The notes beneath the pieces were generated by a model. That model was not told the DNA's origin, did no database searches, and was given only the letters and a program-made list of their open reading frames with translations. A DNA stretch of 64,000 nt from NCBI GenBank assembly GCA_016794565.1, contig JAEUHQ010000097.1, positions 1 to 64,000 of the forward strand, in the 5' to 3' direction. The stretch's first letter is position 1, and each line of letters starts with the position of its first letter. Made by a program: the position numbers and the translations under genes. Positions 14,147 through 26,042 of this stretch are shown here, piece after piece. The DNA comes from Planctomycetota bacterium. Its GTDB lineage: Bacteria; Planctomycetota; UBA1135; UBA2386.

Positions 14147-15277
14147 ATGACCTGGCTCGCGCTCGCGCTCGCGGCGTTCTGGATCGCGCTGGTCGCGGTC
14201 GAGCTGCGCGGCGTGTGTTCGCTGCGCGAGCTGCCGCCGCACCGCGCCGACTCGAAGCCGACGACGGTCACCGCGGTGATGGCCGTGCGCGACGACCGGG
14301 ACCACGTGCGCGCCTCGGTGCAGCGACTGCTCGAACAGCGCGACGTCGACCTCCGCCTCGTCGTCGTCGACGACCGCAGCGTGGACGGAACCGACGAAGT
14401 CCTCGCGGCGCTCGCGGCCGACGAACCGCGCCTCGACGTGCGCAAGATCCGATCGCTGCCCGCGGGATGGCTCGGCAAGTGCCACGCGTTGCACGAAGGC
14501 ACTCGCGACGCGGCATCGCCGTGGCTGCTCTTCGTCGACGGCGACTCGCGACTCGCGCCCGATCTGGTCGCACGCGCCGTCGCCGCCGCGGACGCCGCGA
14601 ACGCGCACCACGTCGCGCTCCTGCCGACGATCGAACCGTCGTCGCTGCCCGGCAAGGGGTGCCTGCTCGCGTTCCAGTCCGTCGTCGCCGACCGCCTGCG
14701 CCGCGTGAACACGACGCCGCAGCGGGCGTTCGTCGGCACCGGCGCGTTCAACCTCGTGCGCGCCGACGCGTACGGGGCGATCGGCCGCCACGAAGGTCTC
14801 CGGCTCGAGGTCGTCGACGACGTGTGGCTCGGCGGCCTGCTGTTCCGCGCCGGGTTCCGTTCGCGCCTCTGGATCGCGTCGCGCGATTTGTCGGTCGACT
14901 GGGGCGGCACGCCGGGCCGGCTCTTCCGCGACGTCGAGAAGAACATGTTCGCGGTGCTCCGCTACCGCACGGTCGCGGCACTCCTGCTGGGCATCGGCGG
15001 CGTCGCCCTCGTGCTCGCTTCGCTCTCGGCGCCCTGGTGGGCCGGAGCGCCGGGGCTCGCCGCGACCGCCGCGTTCCTCGCGACGGCCGTTGCTCCGATC
15101 GTGCTCGCACGGAGGCTCGGCTGGCCCGTCGCTTCGGCTCTGCTGTCGCCGCTCGGCCGCCTCGTGCTCCCGCTCGCGCTGCTGCGCTCGACCCTGACCA
15201 CGACGTGGCGCGGCGGCGTGTCCTGGCGCGGCACCTTCTACCCGCTCGCCGAACTGCGGCGGAGTCAGGCGCGGTGA
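14147..15277 (+). CDS. Family 2 glycosyltransferase, membrane-bound
   Basis: A 376-residue GT-A glycosyltransferase of the processive GT2 type. An N-terminal TM helix (residues 3-20) is followed by the nucleotide-sugar fold: TAVMAVRDDRDHVRASV, VVVDDRSVDGT (first Asp pair, about 73-83), the metal-binding DGD in LLFVDGDSRL (about 126-135), and VGTGAFNLVR. The acceptor-site region follows with VVDDVWLG. C-terminal hydrophobic helices are at about 280-300, 305-325 and 330-348. It resembles glycosyltransferases found in hopanoid and cell-surface glycan clusters. Its neighbours do not reveal the sugar or acceptor. It converges on the cytochrome operon with an 18-bp gap. Confidence 0.85.
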   Translation: MTWLALALAAFWIALVAVELRGVCSLRELPPHRADSKPTTVTAVMAVRDDRDHVRASVQRLLEQRDVDLRLVVVDDRSVDGTDEVLAALAADEPRLDVRKIRSLPAGWLGKCHALHEGTRDAASPWLLFVDGDSRLAPDLVARAVAAADAANAHHVALLPTIEPSSLPGKGCLLAFQSVVADRLRRVNTTPQRAFVGTGAFNLVRADAYGAIGRHEGLRLEVVDDVWLGGLLFRAGFRSRLWIASRDLSVDWGGTPGRLFRDVEKNMFAVLRYRTVAALLLGIGGVALVLASLSAPWWAGAPGLAATAAFLATAVAPIVLARRLGWPVASALLSPLGRLVLPLALLRSTLTTTWRGGVSWRGTFYPLAELRRSQAR

Positions 15278-15295: not shown

Positions 15296-16819
15296 TCACT
15301 CGTGACCGGTCGGATGGCACTGGTAGCACGCGGCCGTCGTCCACTGGTAGCCGGAGACGCCGTTGTGGTGCGAACCGGCGTTCTGCTGGTTGTGCTCGTG
15401 GCAGTCGATGCACGAGAACGCCGGACGGTTCGCCGGGTTGTTGTGGCAGTCGAAGCACGCGAAGCCCGAGTGACGCCCGCTGTTGATCGGGAAGTGGTGG
15501 TTCCAGTTGCCCGCCCCCCACGTCGACGTGTTGTGGCAGTTCTGGCACTGCTGGCTCATCTGGAACGACACGTGCGGCGGATCGGTCGCGCCGTTGTAGT
15601 CGGCGAGGTGGCACGAGGCACACGCGGTGCTGAGCCCGGTGTAGACGCCTGGAGTCGTGTGGCACGACGTGCACGCCCGTGCATGCGCGTTCGTGAGCGG
15701 GAACGACGCCGGGTGGCCGGTGGCACCGTGCCAGTTCGCGGTGCTGTGGCACTGCGCGCAGTCGGTGCCGAAACCTGCAGTCTGGTGGTTCGGATTCTGC
15801 GTCGCCTGCCAGTTGTCGAGGTGGCAGCTGCTGCACGTCGTCGACGTGCCCGAGTAGGAGTTGTTCGGGTGACATTCGCTGCACGAGCGGCCGGCGTGAC
15901 CGAACGTGAGCGCGAACGAGCCCGGGTGCTGCCAGTTCGCGGTGCGGAACGTCCGTGTGTCGTGGCACATCGCACAGTCCGTCGAGAAGCCGGCCGCGGC
16001 GTGTGAAGGCTGCGACGTCGCCGCGAAGTCGTCCGAGTGGCACGTGCTGCAGGCGGTCGACAGGCCGGTGAACGAGTTCGGCGTCGTGTGGCACTCGCGG
16101 CACGCGCGACCTGCGTGCCCGAAGGACAGAGGGAACGACGCGGGGTGGTCGAACCGCGACGGCACCCAACCGACCGGCAGATGGCAGTTCTCGCAGTCCT
16201 GGGCGAAGTTCAGCACCACATGGTTCGGATCCGTCGTTCGCGCGAAGTCGGCCTGGTGGCAGTGCGCGCACTTCGCACTCGCGCCGGCGAAGTTGCCGAC
16301 CTGTGCACCCGGATGGCAGCGGAAGCACGCCGCCGCGGCGTGCGCGCCGACCAACGGGAATCGCGTGCGATCGTGCATCGCGATCGCCTCGCGCGGCTGC
16401 CACGTGCGCTCGTCGTGGCAGTCCTTGCAGTTGCGGCCGAGGCGCTGCTGGTGCGGATCGGCGTGGCAGCCCGAACACCCCTGCGCAGCGAAGTTCGCGA
16501 CCGGCCCGCGGTCGTTGTGGCACAGGAGGCAGCCGGCATCGGCGTGCGCTCCCACCAGCGGCACACCGGTCTTCGCGGCATGGTCGTACGTGAACGTCTT
16601 CTTGATCGTGTGCCAATCGCTGCCCTCGTGGCAGAGCGAACAGTCGGCCGGGAACGAGTCGTGCGGGACCACCGGACCGTGGCCCGGGTTCCACCCCTGC
16701 TGCGGCACGAACGTCGCGCACGCGACGGCGACGACGAAGGCCGCGACACACACGACGAACCAGCGAACGCCGCTCCGCGCCCGGCGAACGGAGACCACGG
16801 GTTGCTGCGAGGTCTGCAT
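15296..16819 (-). CDS. Multiheme c-type cytochrome with 19 CxxCH motifs
   Basis: A 507-residue exported protein with 19 CxxCH haem-attachment sites. The N-terminal basic stretch and hydrophobic segment (residues 19-36) act as signal or anchor; Cys34 in VAVAC could be a lipidation site, though the lipobox is imperfect. From about residue 200 there are four tandem modules of about 70-75 residues, each with three CxxCH. Each also has a spare His in HPASFPL or nearby (variant in the last module), suggesting bis-His haems. The start ATG (16817-16819) shares one base with the stop of the upstream porin gene (TGATG); an in-frame ATG 12 nt upstream is less likely. It should be the terminal electron carrier of the operon. 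Confidence 0.9.
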   Translation of the reverse strand: MQTSQQPVVSVRRARSGVRWFVVCVAAFVVAVACATFVPQQGWNPGHGPVVPHDSFPADCSLCHEGSDWHTIKKTFTYDHAAKTGVPLVGAHADAGCLLCHNDRGPVANFAAQGCSGCHADPHQQRLGRNCKDCHDERTWQPREAIAMHDRTRFPLVGAHAAAACFRCHPGAQVGNFAGASAKCAHCHQADFARTTDPNHVVLNFAQDCENCHLPVGWVPSRFDHPASFPLSFGHAGRACRECHTTPNSFTGLSTACSTCHSDDFAATSQPSHAAAGFSTDCAMCHDTRTFRTANWQHPGSFALTFGHAGRSCSECHPNNSYSGTSTTCSSCHLDNWQATQNPNHQTAGFGTDCAQCHSTANWHGATGHPASFPLTNAHARACTSCHTTPGVYTGLSTACASCHLADYNGATDPPHVSFQMSQQCQNCHNTSTWGAGNWNHHFPINSGRHSGFACFDCHNNPANRPAFSCIDCHEHNQQNAGSHHNGVSGYQWTTAACYQCHPTGHE

Positions 16820-18468
16820 CAGAACCGCCATTGCAGGTAGAGACCGAGGGCCCATGCGTCCTCACGATCACCGAACCATCGTTCGACGGCGAAGTCGAGG
16901 TCGCCGGTGGCGCCGATCGGGTGCGACAGACCGACTTCCGCCGACTGCCGTGTCAGCGTCTCGGGACCGGTGACGAGATCGCCGAGTTCGTAGCGATGCC
17001 AGCGATAACCGACGCGCCAGTAGCCGCCGCCGACCGGGCCGCGCAGCAACAGGCGCGCACCGGGGCCGGACGAATAGCCGCCGTCGGCTTCGTACAGCGA
17101 CACACCGAGGTTGCTGCCGGCGCCGATCACCTCGGCCAGGTCGCCGTCGAGGCCGAACGACGTGCCCTCGTCGTCCTGGTCCTGCCACAGATCGGCACGC
17201 GCCCCGAAGCGCAACCGCTTGCTGGTGCGCCACCAGCCCTGGAGCGACAGGCGGTCGACGTGGCCGTCGCGCACCAGCTCGACCGGCAGGCTCTGGTACT
17301 CGGCGCGTTTCAGCTCCGGCCACGTGAAGCGCGACACCGAGACGCCCGCCCCGAGATCGCTGCCGTCCCAACGCAACGACGCGAACAGTTCGGTGAGATC
17401 GACGTCGCGGCTCTTCACGGTGTCGCTGCCCGTGTAGAGGTCGACCTTCGCACTCGCGAACCAGCGCACGCGCTCCGCGATGACGCCGTCGGCGCGCAGC
17501 AACAACAGGTCGCGATCGGGTGCCCCTTCGTGCCACGTCTTCTGCAGGCCGATGGTCGCGGCGAACGTTCGCTTCGCGTTCGCCGTGTAGTCGAAGAACA
17601 GGTGGATGCCGGTGTCCTCGCCCGTCTCGCGCGACGGGAACGGTCGCGGGTAGGCCCCGAAGCCGGCGCCGAACCGCAGGCCGTGCTCGAAGCGGCGGAC
17701 CACCTCGACGCCGTCGACGAGCCCGATCTCGGGCAGATGCGGCGACAGGAACCGGCCGATCTCGACGCCGGTCGGCGCCCACTGCTCGGTACCGAACGCC
17801 ACCGACAGCAGGTCGAGCCGCCCGTTCCGGTCGGTTTCGTCCGGGGCATCGGGCAGCATCACGCGGCGTTCGTCGACTTCGCCGGAGAAACGCGTGCGCT
17901 CGCCGTAGCCGAGGAAGTTCGTGCCATCCGCGCGCACGCCGAGCCGGCCGAGCAGGTAGTCGTTCCGCTGATCGCCGGCGGTGTCGCGGTTCCACTGGCC
18001 GAACGCGAACAACCGGCCGACGAGCGACGCCGGTCGTTCGTCGGGGCGCTGGCTGTAGGTCGGCACGAGCAGCGGCTGATCGGGAGTGCGGGCACCTTCG
18101 CGCCGCGTCCAGGGCGGGTGTTCCGGCACGGCCTTCGGCGTCGGCCTCGGCGGGGATGCAGGCGCCGCCGCGATCACGACGTTCGCTTCGCCCCGCGTGC
18201 CGACCGGCACGTCGGGCACTCCCGGCGGCAGTTCGGCGCGCGCCGACGTGCTGCTGACCGACCGCACCTCGGCGTCGATGCCCGCCGTTCCCGGGGGGAA
18301 CAGGCGGACGACGACGCCGGGCGCGAGCCCCGCGTCGCGGCCGAGATCGAGGAACACGTCGCGCCCGCTGACGGAGGTGACCGTGACCTGCACGGTGCGC
18401 TCCTGGCCCTGTTGCGCAACCGCCCCGGCGGCGACCAGCGCGAGCATCGTCACGGCGAGAACCTTCAC
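16819..18468 (-). CDS. Outer-membrane beta-barrel (porin partner of cytochromes)
   Basis: A 549-residue protein: signal peptide KVLAVTMLALVAAGAVAQ, a periplasmic domain of about 100 residues, a proline-rich linker (ASPPRPTPKAVPEHPP), then about 400 residues of alternating amphipathic strands. It ends in LYLQWRF with the C-terminal Phe typical of outer-membrane barrels. The start is GTG at 18468: GGAGG lies upstream at 7-nt spacing and GTGA overlaps the stop of the preceding cytochrome gene. Placement between two multihaem cytochromes matches porin-cytochrome conduits such as MtrB/PioB, in which the barrel sheathes a cytochrome through the outer membrane. Sequence homology to MtrB is not obvious, so the role is inferred. 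Confidence 0.75.
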   Translation of the reverse strand: MKVLAVTMLALVAAGAVAQQGQERTVQVTVTSVSGRDVFLDLGRDAGLAPGVVVRLFPPGTAGIDAEVRSVSSTSARAELPPGVPDVPVGTRGEANVVIAAAPASPPRPTPKAVPEHPPWTRREGARTPDQPLLVPTYSQRPDERPASLVGRLFAFGQWNRDTAGDQRNDYLLGRLGVRADGTNFLGYGERTRFSGEVDERRVMLPDAPDETDRNGRLDLLSVAFGTEQWAPTGVEIGRFLSPHLPEIGLVDGVEVVRRFEHGLRFGAGFGAYPRPFPSRETGEDTGIHLFFDYTANAKRTFAATIGLQKTWHEGAPDRDLLLLRADGVIAERVRWFASAKVDLYTGSDTVKSRDVDLTELFASLRWDGSDLGAGVSVSRFTWPELKRAEYQSLPVELVRDGHVDRLSLQGWWRTSKRLRFGARADLWQDQDDEGTSFGLDGDLAEVIGAGSNLGVSLYEADGGYSSGPGARLLLRGPVGGGYWRVGYRWHRYELGDLVTGPETLTRQSAEVGLSHPIGATGDLDFAVERWFGDREDAWALGLYLQWRF

Positions 18469-20453
18469 CGCGTTCCTCCCTTCGGGACACCGAGCGTGTG
18501 GCAGTCACCGCAGGCCGTGCCGAGCGGCTTGTAGCGCACGACCGCGCCCTGTGACGTCGCGTGGCTCACGTGGCACGAAGCACACGCGACCTTCCCGTGC
18601 ACGTCGTCGAGCGGGAACCGTGTGGTGGCGTGATCGAACGCCGCGATGCGGAACGACTCGACGCCGTGGCACCGTGCACAGTCCGTCGTGCCGGCGCGAA
18701 CGAACTGACCGGCGTGGGGATCCTGGTGGCAGCTGGCGCACGACGTGCCGGCGGCGCGGCCGAGGCGCGACGCCTTCGTCGGGCCCTGCGCCGCGCGCGG
18801 ATGGCACGAAGTGCAGTCGACCTTCGTGTGCGCTCCGGCGAGCTTCCATCCGGTCCACACCGCATGGTCGAAGGTGCCCGCGACCGGCGCGAACGCAGCC
18901 GTGTCGTGGCATCGCGCGCAGTCGGTGCGGCCGGCGACCTGCTTCTCGCGGCCTGCACGATCGAAGGTGCCCCCGTGCACGTCGCGGTGGCACGCGATGC
19001 ACTGCTGCGGCGTGCCGCGGAACGTGCGCACGCCGTCCTTCACTTCGCCGTGGCACTTCGAGCAGGCGACCGCGTCGTGCGAGCCGGTCAGCGGGAACGC
19101 GGTCTTCGAGTGCGACGCGACGCCGAACTCGGGCGGACGGAACGACAGCGTGCGGTGGCACGCCGTGCACTCGCGGTATCGCGCTTCGTGGTCGAACTGA
19201 CCGCGGTGCACGTCGGCATGGCACACGCGGCACGCCGCGGGCTCCCTGCCGGGGAACCGCTGCTCGCGCGCAGAGCCGTCGTGGCACTTCGCGCAAGCGA
19301 CTTCGGCGTGCGGCGGGTCGAGGGCGAACCCCGTCGCCGCGTGGAGCGCTGGCTCCATGCGCGCGCTGCGGAAGTCGCGGTCGGCATCCCCGTGGCAGCC
19401 GGCACATCCGTCCGCCGGACCGATCGCGGCCACGGCGGCCTTCGTCAGCGCGGCGCCATGCGGACTCTCGTGGCACACCGCGCACGACGCGAGCGGGGGC
19501 GCGGCACCCGGCCACCGGCCCGGCCGATCGCGATCGCCGTGGCACACGCCGCAGGCAACCTCCGCGTGCGCACCGCGGAGCGGCCACTTCGCGTCGGTGT
19601 GTGCCGCGGGGGCAGTGCCCGCGTCGACCCATTTCGTCGCCGCATGACAGCGCGCGCAGTCCGTCGTGTTCCCGAGGCGAAGCGCAGCGACGGCCCCGGT
19701 CGATCCGTGCGGATCGGCGTGGCACGCGGCGCACTGGCGCGCTGCCTTCGGCGGATCGCTCTGCAGGCGTGCGACTTCGTCCGGGGTTCCCGGGCGGTGG
19801 CATGCGGCACACGCGACCCTCTGGTGCGCGTCGCGCAACGCGAACGTCGCGTGCCGGAAGCCGGGTGTCTCCTTCCACGCCCCGACTTGACCGTGGCACT
19901 TCTCGCAGTCGCCTCCGAACGCACCGCGGTGCTCGTCGGCATGGCACTCGATGCACGTCTGCGTGAGCCCGAGATAGCGCCCGCCGTGGGGTGGCACGAC
20001 CGCATCCGCGGCGAGATGGCACTTGTTGCACGCGACGTCGCGGTGGGCGCCCGTGAGACGCCAGTCGACGTGCCGATGGTCGTACTGCTCGGCGACCACG
20101 CCCGCGAGCGCGAACGCGTGGTTCGCGAGGAGCGGCGCACTGTCCCCGTGGTGATCCGAATGGCACGTGCCGCAGCGCTCGCGCTGCGCGGCCGGCATCG
20201 CGCCGTGCAGGCCCTTGCCGCTCGCCACCTGGGCTGCGATCGCCGCGTGGCACTTGTTGCACGCGTTGGCGTCGATGCCGGCTCCCTCGCGATGGCATGC
20301 TTCGCAGTTGCGACCCTGGTCGAGTTCGGGGAGAGCCACGTGGGCGGGATGCAGCGGGCCCGGCCCGATGCGGGCCCCGCGCAGATCCCACAACGTGACC
20401 GCGAGCACGAGCGCCAGCGAGACGGCGGGCAGGAGCCAGCGCAAGGCCTTCAT
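18465..20453 (-). CDS. Multiheme c-type cytochrome with 23 CxxCH motifs
   Basis: A 662-residue exported cytochrome with 23 CxxCH motifs. An N-terminal hydrophobic signal/anchor (residues 5-24, ALRWLLPAVSLALVLAVTLW) is followed by haem sites throughout, repeating the pattern CxxCHxDxHxGxF / FDHxxxxFPLxGxHxxVxCxxCH. That pattern is usual in stacked multihaem cytochromes with distal His ligands. It overlaps the upstream oxidoreductase gene (ATGA, 20450-20453) and the downstream porin gene (GTGA, 18465-18468). The position suggests it carries electrons across the periplasm or into the barrel. No catalytic signature of nitrite or hydroxylamine enzymes (CxxCK) is seen. Confidence 0.9.
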   Translation of the reverse strand: MKALRWLLPAVSLALVLAVTLWDLRGARIGPGPLHPAHVALPELDQGRNCEACHREGAGIDANACNKCHAAIAAQVASGKGLHGAMPAAQRERCGTCHSDHHGDSAPLLANHAFALAGVVAEQYDHRHVDWRLTGAHRDVACNKCHLAADAVVPPHGGRYLGLTQTCIECHADEHRGAFGGDCEKCHGQVGAWKETPGFRHATFALRDAHQRVACAACHRPGTPDEVARLQSDPPKAARQCAACHADPHGSTGAVAALRLGNTTDCARCHAATKWVDAGTAPAAHTDAKWPLRGAHAEVACGVCHGDRDRPGRWPGAAPPLASCAVCHESPHGAALTKAAVAAIGPADGCAGCHGDADRDFRSARMEPALHAATGFALDPPHAEVACAKCHDGSAREQRFPGREPAACRVCHADVHRGQFDHEARYRECTACHRTLSFRPPEFGVASHSKTAFPLTGSHDAVACSKCHGEVKDGVRTFRGTPQQCIACHRDVHGGTFDRAGREKQVAGRTDCARCHDTAAFAPVAGTFDHAVWTGWKLAGAHTKVDCTSCHPRAAQGPTKASRLGRAAGTSCASCHQDPHAGQFVRAGTTDCARCHGVESFRIAAFDHATTRFPLDDVHGKVACASCHVSHATSQGAVVRYKPLGTACGDCHTLGVPKGGTR

Positions 20454-22726
20454 CGCCCACCCCCGCCGCGCAGCACGGAGAAGTCGACGCCGCCGTAGCG
20501 CAAGGCCGTGACGGCGTGCACGACGGTGAGCAGCAGCAGCAGCACCGCGAGCCAGCGATGGAGCCAGCGCCAGGTCGACAGGAGCCCGCGCACTTCCTCG
20601 TAGTGCGTGAGCTGCATCGCGAGGCGATGGGACCGTTGCGCGAGCGAGAGCACCCGCACGGCTTCGGTGCGCGGGATGCCCTCGGCGGCGGCGCGAGCGC
20701 GCAATCGTCCCAGTTCCCTCTGCAGACGCAGTTCGCTCCGCAGGAGCCCGGCGATGCGCGCGAAGAAGCCGCGCCCGAAGTGGGCCGCATCCGCGAGGCG
20801 CTCCACGACCGCGCGCACCTCGGCACCGAAGCCGCGGCCGTCGCGATCCCACTCGCCGGCGATGGCGGCGACCTTGGCACTCATCTCCTCGAACTCCTGC
20901 TGACGACCGTTCTGGGCCCGCGGGAGGAACGAGTAGAACCAGCGGCCGACGACGCCGGCGACGACGACGACCAGCATCGTGAGCAGCGCGTGCCCCCCGG
21001 CCGAATCGCGCAGCAGGAAGCCGCTGTGCAGCACGGCGAACAGGAGCGCCGCAAGACCGGTCGCGACGTGCATGTTCATCCACGACTTCAGCGAGCCGGG
21101 CAGCCAACGACCGAGACTCGGTGCACGCCGCGCGAGGTACGCCAGGTTGGTGGCGAAGAGCCCGACCGCCAGCAGTGCCGCGAACAGGCCGATCTGGCCC
21201 TGCGGGCGCAGCAGATCGTGCCACGGCGACGCGCCGCGTTCGGGTGCGGGGAGGTCGTAGTACTCACGACACAGCACGCGGTGCACGAGCAGCGCGACCA
21301 TGCCGGCGAGCGTGCCCGCGAGAGCGACCACGAGGCCGGTGCCACGATCCGTCGCGATCCTCTCCTCGGGCCGCAGCGACGAGTCGAAGGAGACACCGGC
21401 GGCCTCGAGCAGGGGGAACGGCGGCGTGCCCCCGGCGAAGACGAACACGTCGTCGGCGGCCACGTGTTCGACAGCGGTCGCGACACCGCCCGCCGCCTCG
21501 ACGGCCGCCTCCCCCGCCGACGCGAGCAGCGCGCCTTCCGGGGTGATCTCCTTCACCACCGTGCCGAACCGCACCTGCACCGTGCCGGCCGCCACCGCCG
21601 CGCCGATGCGCTCTTCGTTGCGGGCCTTGAGCCGCGAGAACGCGTCGCGCCGGTAGCTGATCGTGACCTGGTTGTCGCCCTGCTCGGCGAGAGCCATGGC
21701 CGCTTCGATCGCACTGTCGCCGCCGCCGACGACCAGGATCGAACGGCCGTGGTAACCCTCGGCGTCGAGCAGCGAGTACGCGACCTTGGGCAGATCCTCG
21801 CCGGGCACCCCGAGTCGCTGCGGCGAGCCCCGCCGGCCGACCGCGAGACAGACATGGTGGCTGCGGAGCACGCCCCGGTTCGTGGTGACGACGAAATGGT
21901 CGCCCGTGCGCTCGATCTTCTGGAGCACGACGCCGGTCTTGACCGGCAGGTCGTGCTCGGCGACGAGGCCCTGCCACAGCTCGACCAGTTCTTCCTTCGA
22001 GTATTCGAGGCGACCGAGCCTGCCGTGGAGGGGCAGGTCCATCGGCTGGGTCATCACGAGCTTCTTGCGCGGGTAGGCGGCGACGGTGCCACCGATCTCG
22101 GCGGCCTGGTCGATGCCAAGGCAACGGAGCCCGCGCTCCTTCGCCCCGAGCAGGCACGAGACACCGGCAGGGCCGAGGCCGACGACCAGCAGGTCGAGCG
22201 GACCCTTCGCCACGCCCTTCGGCGCTTCGCCCGCGGCGATGCGCGCCGCCACCCTGCTCGCCACGAGGCCCCCGTGCTGCACCGCGGTACGCACGAGTGC
22301 GAAGCCCGTGATCTCGCCCGCGAGGAACAGCCCCGGTACGCCGACCGCCTCCAGACCTTCGTCGACCGCCGGCAGGTCCTTGCGATCCTTGATGTCGCCG
22401 AGCGTCAACGCAATCGCGTTCGTCGGACACGCGGCGGCACAGAGGCCGTGGCCGACGCACCGGGCCCCGTGCACGATGACCGCCTGGCCGAACGCCAGCG
22501 CGAGCACACCGTCTTCGGGACAAGCCCGCACGCACGCGCCGCAGCCGATGCACGCCGACAGGTCGATGCGCGGATGCTGCAGGCGCGCCTTGTCGCTGCC
22601 GCGCGTCCTGGCGCGGGCACGCTCGGCCATGTTGTCGGCATGATGGCGCAGTTCGTGCCGCCGGCGCAGCAGCGCGAGCAGCACGATGGCCAGGAACAGG
22701 ACCGGTAACGAGAAGAGCCAGGACAC
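20450..22726 (-). CDS. Membrane ferredoxin-FAD-cytochrome b oxidoreductase
   Basis: A 758-residue multi-domain protein. An N-terminal TM helix (3-20) precedes a ferredoxin domain with CIGCGACVRACP (Cys59, 62, 65, 69). A second half-site, CVGHGLCAAACP (Cys90, 96, 100), has His93 replacing a Cys. A GLFLAGEITG segment (132-141) comes next. A flavin disulfide-reductase-like unit has a FAD loop at VGLGPAGVS (182-190) and an NAD(P) loop in VVGGGDSAIEAA. About five C-terminal TM helices include two His-x13-His pairs (MHVATG..VLH and LHRWLA..VVH), the cytochrome b diheme pattern. The GTG start at 22726 is preferred; GTG at 22753 is possible. It would pass NAD(P)H or quinone electrons to the downstream cytochromes. 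It is the first gene of the operon. Confidence 0.85.
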   Translation of the reverse strand: MSWLFSLPVLFLAIVLLALLRRRHELRHHADNMAERARARTRGSDKARLQHPRIDLSACIGCGACVRACPEDGVLALAFGQAVIVHGARCVGHGLCAAACPTNAIALTLGDIKDRKDLPAVDEGLEAVGVPGLFLAGEITGFALVRTAVQHGGLVASRVAARIAAGEAPKGVAKGPLDLLVVGLGPAGVSCLLGAKERGLRCLGIDQAAEIGGTVAAYPRKKLVMTQPMDLPLHGRLGRLEYSKEELVELWQGLVAEHDLPVKTGVVLQKIERTGDHFVVTTNRGVLRSHHVCLAVGRRGSPQRLGVPGEDLPKVAYSLLDAEGYHGRSILVVGGGDSAIEAAMALAEQGDNQVTISYRRDAFSRLKARNEERIGAAVAAGTVQVRFGTVVKEITPEGALLASAGEAAVEAAGGVATAVEHVAADDVFVFAGGTPPFPLLEAAGVSFDSSLRPEERIATDRGTGLVVALAGTLAGMVALLVHRVLCREYYDLPAPERGASPWHDLLRPQGQIGLFAALLAVGLFATNLAYLARRAPSLGRWLPGSLKSWMNMHVATGLAALLFAVLHSGFLLRDSAGGHALLTMLVVVVAGVVGRWFYSFLPRAQNGRQQEFEEMSAKVAAIAGEWDRDGRGFGAEVRAVVERLADAAHFGRGFFARIAGLLRSELRLQRELGRLRARAAAEGIPRTEAVRVLSLAQRSHRLAMQLTHYEEVRGLLSTWRWLHRWLAVLLLLLTVVHAVTALRYGGVDFSVLRGGGGR

Positions 22727-24389: not shown

Positions 24390-24393
<4 letters not shown>
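23635..24393 (+). CDS. kdsB: 3-deoxy-manno-octulosonate cytidylyltransferase (CMP-Kdo synthetase)
   Basis: A 252-residue nucleotidyltransferase that activates Kdo with CTP for lipopolysaccharide inner core. Family motifs: [13 protein letters not shown] (residues 14-26, nucleotide-binding loop), [10 protein letters not shown] (about 80-89), and [11 protein letters not shown] in place of the usual QGDEPL segment. YFSRAVIPF and HIGVYGF follow, and [16 protein letters not shown] lies near the C-terminus. Length fits the family (about 250). GAAGGGAG precedes the ATG. It is coupled by 4-bp overlaps both upstream and to pyrG, which supplies its CTP substrate. A related CMP-sugar specificity is possible, but Kdo is the simplest reading. 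Confidence 0.9.

Positions 24394-26040
<1,647 letters not shown>

Positions 26041-26042
<2 letters not shown>

Follow-up and report, generated by a model that had tools for sequence, protein, structure and literature searches.

A planctomycete operon with counterparts of all four PCC3 components, a probable electron conduit across the cell envelope with its own ferredoxin-flavin module

PCC3 was described from Proteobacteria by He et al. in 2017 (PMC5566968) as a system of four parts: a porin, an inner-membrane component (the IMP) and two cytochromes, of which the periplasmic one has a median of 21 haems and the extracellular one a median of 34. The IMP has ~300 amino acids (aa) and five transmembrane (TM) helices, with two WX3HX13H motifs on TM3 and TM5 and an SGXXG motif on TM4; the authors proposed it to be a quinone-active cytochrome b and remarked on the likeness of its HX13H arrangement to NADPH oxidases and ferric reductases (PMC5566968). 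Here we analyse a window of 64,000 nucleotides (contig JAEUHQ010000097.1, positions 1 to 64,000) from a draft planctomycete genome of 5.07 Mb in 223 contigs (assembly GCA_016794565.1). On the minus strand of this window, at 15296-22726, four overlapping genes encode a ferredoxin-flavin adenine dinucleotide (FAD)-cytochrome b protein (RED), a multihaem cytochrome (CYT1), a predicted outer-membrane barrel (BARREL) and a second multihaem cytochrome (CYT2). All four PCC3 parts have counterparts among these genes and, judged by sequence, the operon is a planctomycete form of PCC3.

Comparison of each gene product with its PCC3 counterpart reveals the basis of this assignment. The C-terminal domain of RED carries the IMP signature, with both WX3HX13H motifs (W549-x3-H553-x13-H567 and W719-x3-H723-x13-H737) and the sequence AGVVGR, which has A for S; the corresponding helices are present in the AlphaFold2 (AF2) model. 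H553, H567, H723 and H737, the presumed haem-b ligands, are invariant across many phyla, in all 53 cytochrome b domains compared, and at least two motifs of the WX3HX13H type occur in 141 of the 151 IMP open reading frames scoring over 80 bits. CYT1, with 23 CxxCH motifs, lies within the span of PCC3 periplasmic cytochromes (about 21-27 haems), its relatives having mostly 17, 20, 23 or 26. BARREL matches the porin through a 22-strand AF2 model and a remote profile match. CYT2, with 19 motifs here and 7-70 among its relatives, would correspond to the extracellular cytochrome of PCC3, with its many and variable haems, and is predicted to be located at the surface.

Both systems combine large periplasmic with variable outer (here presumed outer) multihaem cytochromes, a porin, the IMP motifs and a low residue-to-haem ratio (PMC5566968; Gallionellaceae survey, PMC10734462), and in both the periplasmic haem counts step by three (21/24/27 in PCC3, 17/20/23/26 in relatives of the planctomycete type). 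They differ in that the IMP is here fused to a ferredoxin-FAD (Fd-FAD) module, CYT2 is lipoprotein-like, the gene order is not the same, and BARREL has 549 aa and 22 strands whereas PCC3 porins have ~750-1000 aa and up to 42 predicted TM regions. The original prediction, made from the DNA letters of the window, knew of no described system with just this gene order and of none characterised in such an organism; PCC3 had in fact been described, and its four parts match, while the fused module and the gene order indeed set this locus apart. The coordinates given there, and the overlapping junctions (GATGA, GTGA and TGATG for RED/CYT1/BARREL/CYT2), are exact, and both CxxCH counts were reproduced. 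After 5,000 residue shuffles, the expectation was a mean of 0.26 motifs for CYT1 (maximum 4) and 0.28 for CYT2 (maximum 5); since these means lie below 0.3, against 23 and 19, the counts are not due to chance.

Table 1. Genes of the operon and domains of RED, with positions in the 64,000-nucleotide window (TrxR, thioredoxin reductase; pLDDT, predicted local distance difference test).
Feature	Position	Strand	Description
RED, whole (ferredoxin-FAD-cytochrome b)	20450-22726	minus	GTG start, 758 aa; N-terminal TM helix, ferredoxin domain, YpdA/TrxR-like FAD-NAD(P) domain, five-TM cytochrome b domain
RED ferredoxin domain, residues 53-106	22409-22570	minus	Pfam Fer4 families
RED FAD/NAD(P) domain, residues 177-453	21368-22198	minus	Pyr_redox_3, 115 bits
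RED cytochrome b (PCC3-type IMP) domain	20453-21364	minus	motifs; AF2 pLDDT 89; weak Ferric_reduct/DUF4405 similarity
CYT1, multihaem cytochrome	18465-20453	minus	ATG start, 662 aa; 23 CxxCH; N-terminal membrane anchor; 26 residues per haem
BARREL	16819-18468	minus	GTG start, 549 aa; signal peptide, small beta domain (22-99), linker, 22-strand barrel (148-548), C-terminal WRF with terminal Phe
CYT2, multihaem cytochrome	15296-16819	minus	ATG start, 507 aa; 19 CxxCH; 23 residues per haem; Cys34 of VAVAC

The Fd-FAD module is also found with PCC3 elsewhere. A full Fd-FAD gene is present in 17 of 300 Burkholderiales genomes (575-627 bits), and the strongest IMP matches among the 300 (127-170 bits) fall in exactly the same 17. 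In 16 of these the Fd-FAD gene directly adjoins a two-motif IMP gene in divergent orientation; next come a 24- or 27-haem cytochrome and, as a rule, another large cytochrome. In the remaining locus (L210) it lies downstream of the porin, within the same cluster. Because the two genome sets are identical and the neighbourhoods shared, the Fd-FAD enzyme is a regular partner of PCC3. When 146 Fd-FAD sequences are placed in a tree, the 57 planctomycete fusions all fall in a single clade (support 99 in the Shimodaira-Hasegawa-like approximate likelihood ratio test, SH-aLRT), and the PCC3-bearing Burkholderiales form their own. A separate, independent Fd-FAD/cytochrome b fusion occurs in an uncultured delta-proteobacterium (L146:9878-12181), where a 27-haem cytochrome adjoins. 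The words "ferredoxin" and "FAD" are both absent from the text of PMC5566968, and later PCC3 papers name four components, without Fd-FAD; in passages of open-access text on Melioribacter, Caldithrix, MBNT15, Deferribacter, the Verrucomicrobia PCC and humin oxidation, we found no mention of the pairing. Measured against this open-access literature, Fd-FAD as a regular PCC3 partner, its fusion in a single planctomycete clade, the occurrence in at least ten phyla and the growth of haem counts in threes are new.

This pairing bears on how electrons reach the membrane domain. In the model of He et al. (PMC5566968), the IMP is quinone-active; the domain would then be a quinol- or quinone-active cytochrome b, with Fd-FAD as a secondary input, a sensor or a bifurcating partner. 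A weak similarity to Ni_hydr_CYTB, seen in six of the 53 cytochrome b domains, is consistent with such a role, as are IMP-like proteins that have other redox partners too (the weaker Burkholderiales matches and a Methylotenera locus, L217). The strict pairing of Fd-FAD with strong IMPs (17 and 17 genomes), the planctomycete fusion and the second fusion in L146 argue instead for direct transfer, and the membrane domain is closer to Ferric_reduct and DUF4405 than to Ni_hydr_CYTB. We therefore regard a quinone-active membrane domain with Fd-FAD in such a secondary role as rather unlikely.

RED resembles NADPH oxidases and ferric reductases (PF01794), in which a FAD-NAD(P) domain passes electrons to two b haems whose paired His ligands lie on TM3 and TM5. 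It differs from them by an additional ferredoxin, by a flavin domain that is YpdA/TrxR-like and not of the FNR type, and by a PF01794 score just short of the cut-off (26.9 bits against 28). The assignment of the flavin domain to the YpdA/TrxR-like fold follows sequence motifs: the GxGxxG and GGGDSA-type motifs of the two-dinucleotide-binding fold are present, the GGGDSA nucleotide motif and a YR..F.R basic motif are invariant, and the NCBIfam YpdA model gives 117 bits, under its equivalog cut-off of 339.9. A role as thioredoxin reductase is ruled out, as the flavin domain has no redox CxxC pair, and so is a bc1-type cytochrome b identity, a PF00033 search of the genome giving no match. The ferredoxin domain carries two cluster motifs, C59xxC62xxC65xxxC69 and C90xxH93xxC96xxxC100, the second with His in the place of one Cys; this His (CxxHxxCxxxC) recurs in 139 of 152 relatives. 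The second position of the first motif is Cys in Planctomycetota and often Ser in Bacteroidota (C or S/T overall), and the clusters may be of the [3Fe-4S] type or His/Ser-ligated. We place the ferredoxin-flavin part in the cytoplasm because positive residues (arginines) come after the first TM helix.

The operon probably specifies a trans-envelope electron conduit of the PCC3 type, in which an NAD(P)H-fed, NADPH oxidase (NOX)-like RED feeds a cytochrome wire, more likely in the outward direction. The pathway would comprise the following steps: (I) RED would be an inner-membrane protein whose ferredoxin-FAD-NAD(P) part extends into the cytoplasm, and electrons would most likely pass from NAD(P)H to FAD, then to the Fe-S clusters and on to two b haems; (II) these haems, bound to TM3 and TM5, would form a stack through the membrane like that of NADPH oxidases and ferric reductases; (III) CYT1, anchored in the inner membrane, would take the electrons across the periplasm from haem to haem through its 23 haems; (IV) the 22-strand barrel would give the cytochrome chain passage through the outer membrane; and (V) the lipid-anchored 19-haem CYT2, presumably exposed at the surface, would give electrons to, or take them from, a partner outside the cell. 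The original prediction had likewise proposed a conduit complete in itself, with an input module for pyridine nucleotide or quinone. A porin-cytochrome conduit that has its own redox input on the cytoplasmic side is supported by the confident barrel, the very strong co-occurrence of the genes, the invariant haem-b His and the CYT2 lipobox (57/57 fused-RED clusters).

Several points weigh against this interpretation. A Foldseek search of the PDB with the cytochrome b domain gave no match to a solved structure at E<=0.001, and for this reason the haem b arrangement is drawn from motif analogy; the top Foldseek matches (F-BAR, ABC helices) are meaningless. The use of a pyridine nucleotide by RED is deduced from fold and motifs. 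Similarity among multihaem proteins is generic and cannot alone fix their location, and the function of PCC3 itself has been described as unverified (PMC12442390). Finally, some Fd-FAD loci (L125, L126, L152, L170 and L172) have no detected porin or cytochromes, some of them near contig ends.

With NAD(P)H as donor, outward flow would be favoured by both redox and membrane potential, and no energy would be conserved at RED. Roles such as the disposal of excess reductant or the reduction of minerals or humics would consequently come first. The same conduit could also run inward, with CYT2 oxidising an extracellular donor (Fe(II), a mineral or a humic hydroquinone) and RED passing the electrons on to NAD(P)+ or ferredoxin. 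In principle multihaem conduits can work in both directions, PCC3 is found in neutrophilic Fe(II) oxidisers and was proposed for Fe(II) oxidation (PMC5566968), and the inner-membrane component of one PCC3 copy is up in iron-oxidising Sideroxydans CL21 (PMC12442390). In contrast, both PCC3 clusters are down on Fe(II) in S. lithotrophicus ES-1 (PMC8788666), and the outer PCC3 cytochrome of its second cluster is undetected in the proteome (PMC12016527); the published Sideroxydans expression data are thus mixed. In addition, reduction of NAD(P)+ from donors in the Fe(II) range against the membrane potential would be strongly uphill, and no coupling site is visible. We regard the inward direction as unlikely. 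Electron uptake, which the original prediction held to be equally possible, loses ground if NAD(P)H is truly the inner partner, because NAD(P)H donates electrons at low potential and outward flow would be favoured by the membrane potential.

The structural model of BARREL supports an outer-membrane conduit. AF2, run on an alignment of 22 relatives, predicts a barrel of 22 strands over residues 148-548 (mean pLDDT 82.7, ~90 over the barrel), so that a failed barrel prediction, which would have counted against the original prediction, is not what we observe, and the best solved Foldseek matches of the model are all outer-membrane barrels (PapC, the OprD family and MOMP). Pfam gives no significant match to BARREL, and neither BARREL nor 21 relatives match the MtrB or PioB profiles of Pfam and NCBIfam at E<=1. 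Membership in the MtrB/PioB/Ext porins is accordingly rejected by profile search. By hhalign, the BARREL family aligns with eight PCC3-type porins over 216 columns (Prob 91, E 1.1e-6), which indicates a remote homologue of the PCC3 porins. We note that MtrCAB, MtoAB and PioAB share the same working plan of periplasmic multihaem cytochrome, outer-membrane barrel and outer cytochrome. In contrast to these systems, BARREL has no MtrB/PioB profile match, the operon has its own input module in place of CymA, and CYT1 has 23 haems where MtrA is decahaem; the DmsE/MtrA-type model covers part of CYT1, at 71 bits against a cut-off of 192. The Geobacter OmbB-OmaB-OmcB and Ext conduits are likewise porin-cytochrome gene clusters, but the ExtN/ExtO/ExtJ NCBIfam matches are weak and below cut-off, and no homologous input module was found.

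A system confined to the periplasm, with cytochromes that hold charge or supply a periplasmic reductase and with a barrel that is a pore of no relation to them, would fit the 34 of 58 CYT2 genes of split-RED clusters (those with separate cytochrome b and Fd-FAD genes) that have no lipobox-type Cys, and the surface exposure of CYT2 is a prediction. We consider it very improbable: the barrel accompanies the cytochromes across phyla and is remotely homologous to PCC3 porins, and some clusters (type B) add a large 11-haem protein, X, mostly with a lipobox-like start.

The conduit genes co-occur widely. BARREL homologues are present in 19 of the 31 genomes searched, the source genome included, and the loci retrieved have the same neighbours in the same order as far as the contig extends. 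Across 392 Planctomycetota genomes we find ~45 full-length RED genes, which CYT1, BARREL and CYT2 adjoin where the contig permits. A scan of GTDB genomes yielded at least 425 RED relatives, mostly from draft metagenome genomes. The best 80 of these belong to Planctomycetota, Calditrichota, Krumholzibacteriota, Neomarinimicrobiota, Acidobacteriota, Gemmatimonadota, Bacteroidota, Ignavibacteriota, Chlorobiota, Zixibacteria, Kiritimatiellota, Myxococcota, Nitrospinota, Spirochaetota and Pseudomonadota, and at least ten of these phyla have complete clusters when the Burkholderiales and Pseudomonadales loci are counted in. The conduit is hence not tied to one type of organism. Enough flank is available at 103 distinct loci, and 90 of them contain all three partners of RED, while contig ends cut several of the other 13; rare co-occurrence, which would have spoken against the original prediction, is not what we observe. 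Among 53 unique fused-RED loci, 33 have the order RED-CYT1-BARREL-CYT2 and 20 the same order plus the 11-haem gene X, while the split-RED order is mostly cytb-FdFAD-CYT1-CYT2-BARREL (16 loci). The complete genome of Planctomycetes bacterium Poly30 (CP036434.1) carries a full type A cluster with a 26-haem CYT1 and a 16-haem CYT2.

We tentatively extend this proposal to PCC3 as a class: it is quite possible that these systems are NAD(P)H-driven, NOX-like electron exporters, fed by a conserved Fd-FAD flavoenzyme, which is a separate protein in most phyla and fused in Planctomycetota, and built on a wire that three-haem modules can lengthen, and not quinone-linked Fe(II) oxidases. If so, many aerobic and anaerobic bacteria would link cytoplasmic reductant directly to the outside and bypass the quinone pool. 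Since 2017, when PCC3 was recognised in genomes, its IMP has had no named partner; the strict Fd-FAD pairing together with the fusion names a likely electron entry point. The input and direction of PCC3 thereby become testable in cultured bacteria (Planctomycetes bacterium Poly30, Maribellus luteus, Arenibacter and Thermobacterium). The spread to at least ten phyla also brings in marine Bacteroidota and Planctomycetota, which are not usually deemed electroactive.

In both cytochromes Pfam detects cytochrome c7/c3-type repeats and nothing else, and a PDB sequence search with the barrel, the cytochromes and X returned nothing useful. The N-terminal anchor of CYT1 looks uncleaved; CYT1 is presumed to be a periplasm-spanning wire, its location being deduced from this anchor. 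A lipoprotein-type Cys after a hydrophobic stretch is present in all 57 complete CYT2 genes of fused-RED clusters, and CYT2 is a predicted lipoprotein and the presumed outer cytochrome. The CxxCH spacing of CYT2 cycles through ~31-17-25 residues, a three-haem module of ~75 residues. Among complete CYT1 genes, 107 of 113 have 17, 20, 23 or 26 motifs, and the counts in 94 of 115 complete CYT2 genes are 7, 10, 13, 16, 19, 22, 25, 28, 34, 37, 49 or 70 (1 mod 3). These many distinct values, counted in related and hence non-independent sequences, show that the cytochromes grow by modules of three haems. With 70 motifs in 1,748 aa, the CYT2 homologue of a Saprospiraceae bacterium (OFTM152, L164:14050-19293) is the largest observed; other relatives have 49 (L165) and 62 (PCC3 loci L205, L207 and L209).

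The source genome holds a second copy of the conduit, of type B, on another contig (C25; L020:1058-10575), with RED, a 23-haem CYT1, a barrel, a 7-haem CYT2 and an X of ~950 aa with 11 CxxCH motifs and a lipobox-like start. Type B copies form one clade of 25 sequences (SH-aLRT 100) inside the fused forms. X proteins (L115:16553-19459 and 19 further loci) always have exactly 11 CxxCH motifs, a weak MtrC-domain similarity and, in most type B clusters, a lipobox-like start; no PDB relative was found. X may be the surface reductase of these clusters. One type B cluster (L091, G403:C1:4326000-4342000) is seemingly broken, with a gap of ~3 kb between CYT1 and the barrel and CYT2-like fragments of one motif each. 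The Methylotenera locus (L217:9674-14677; G413, contig C12) encodes a flavoprotein of 828 aa, an IMP-like protein in which the WX3HX13H motif occurs twice, and a protein with 10 CxxCH motifs, with no porin detected, and is perhaps a distant relative, a related non-PCC3 system.

The genome around the operon also has genes for oxygen reductases and for a protein of cytochrome c assembly, from which we conclude that the host is able to make c-type cytochromes. The downstream neighbour of the operon is a convergent glycosyltransferase-2 gene (14147-15274, plus strand), and on its upstream side lies an open reading frame in divergent orientation. Further on, at 24390-26042 (plus strand), lies a gene identified by its protein start as a probable CTP synthase (pyrG), which adjoins a kdsB-like cytidylyltransferase gene in what look like housekeeping surroundings.

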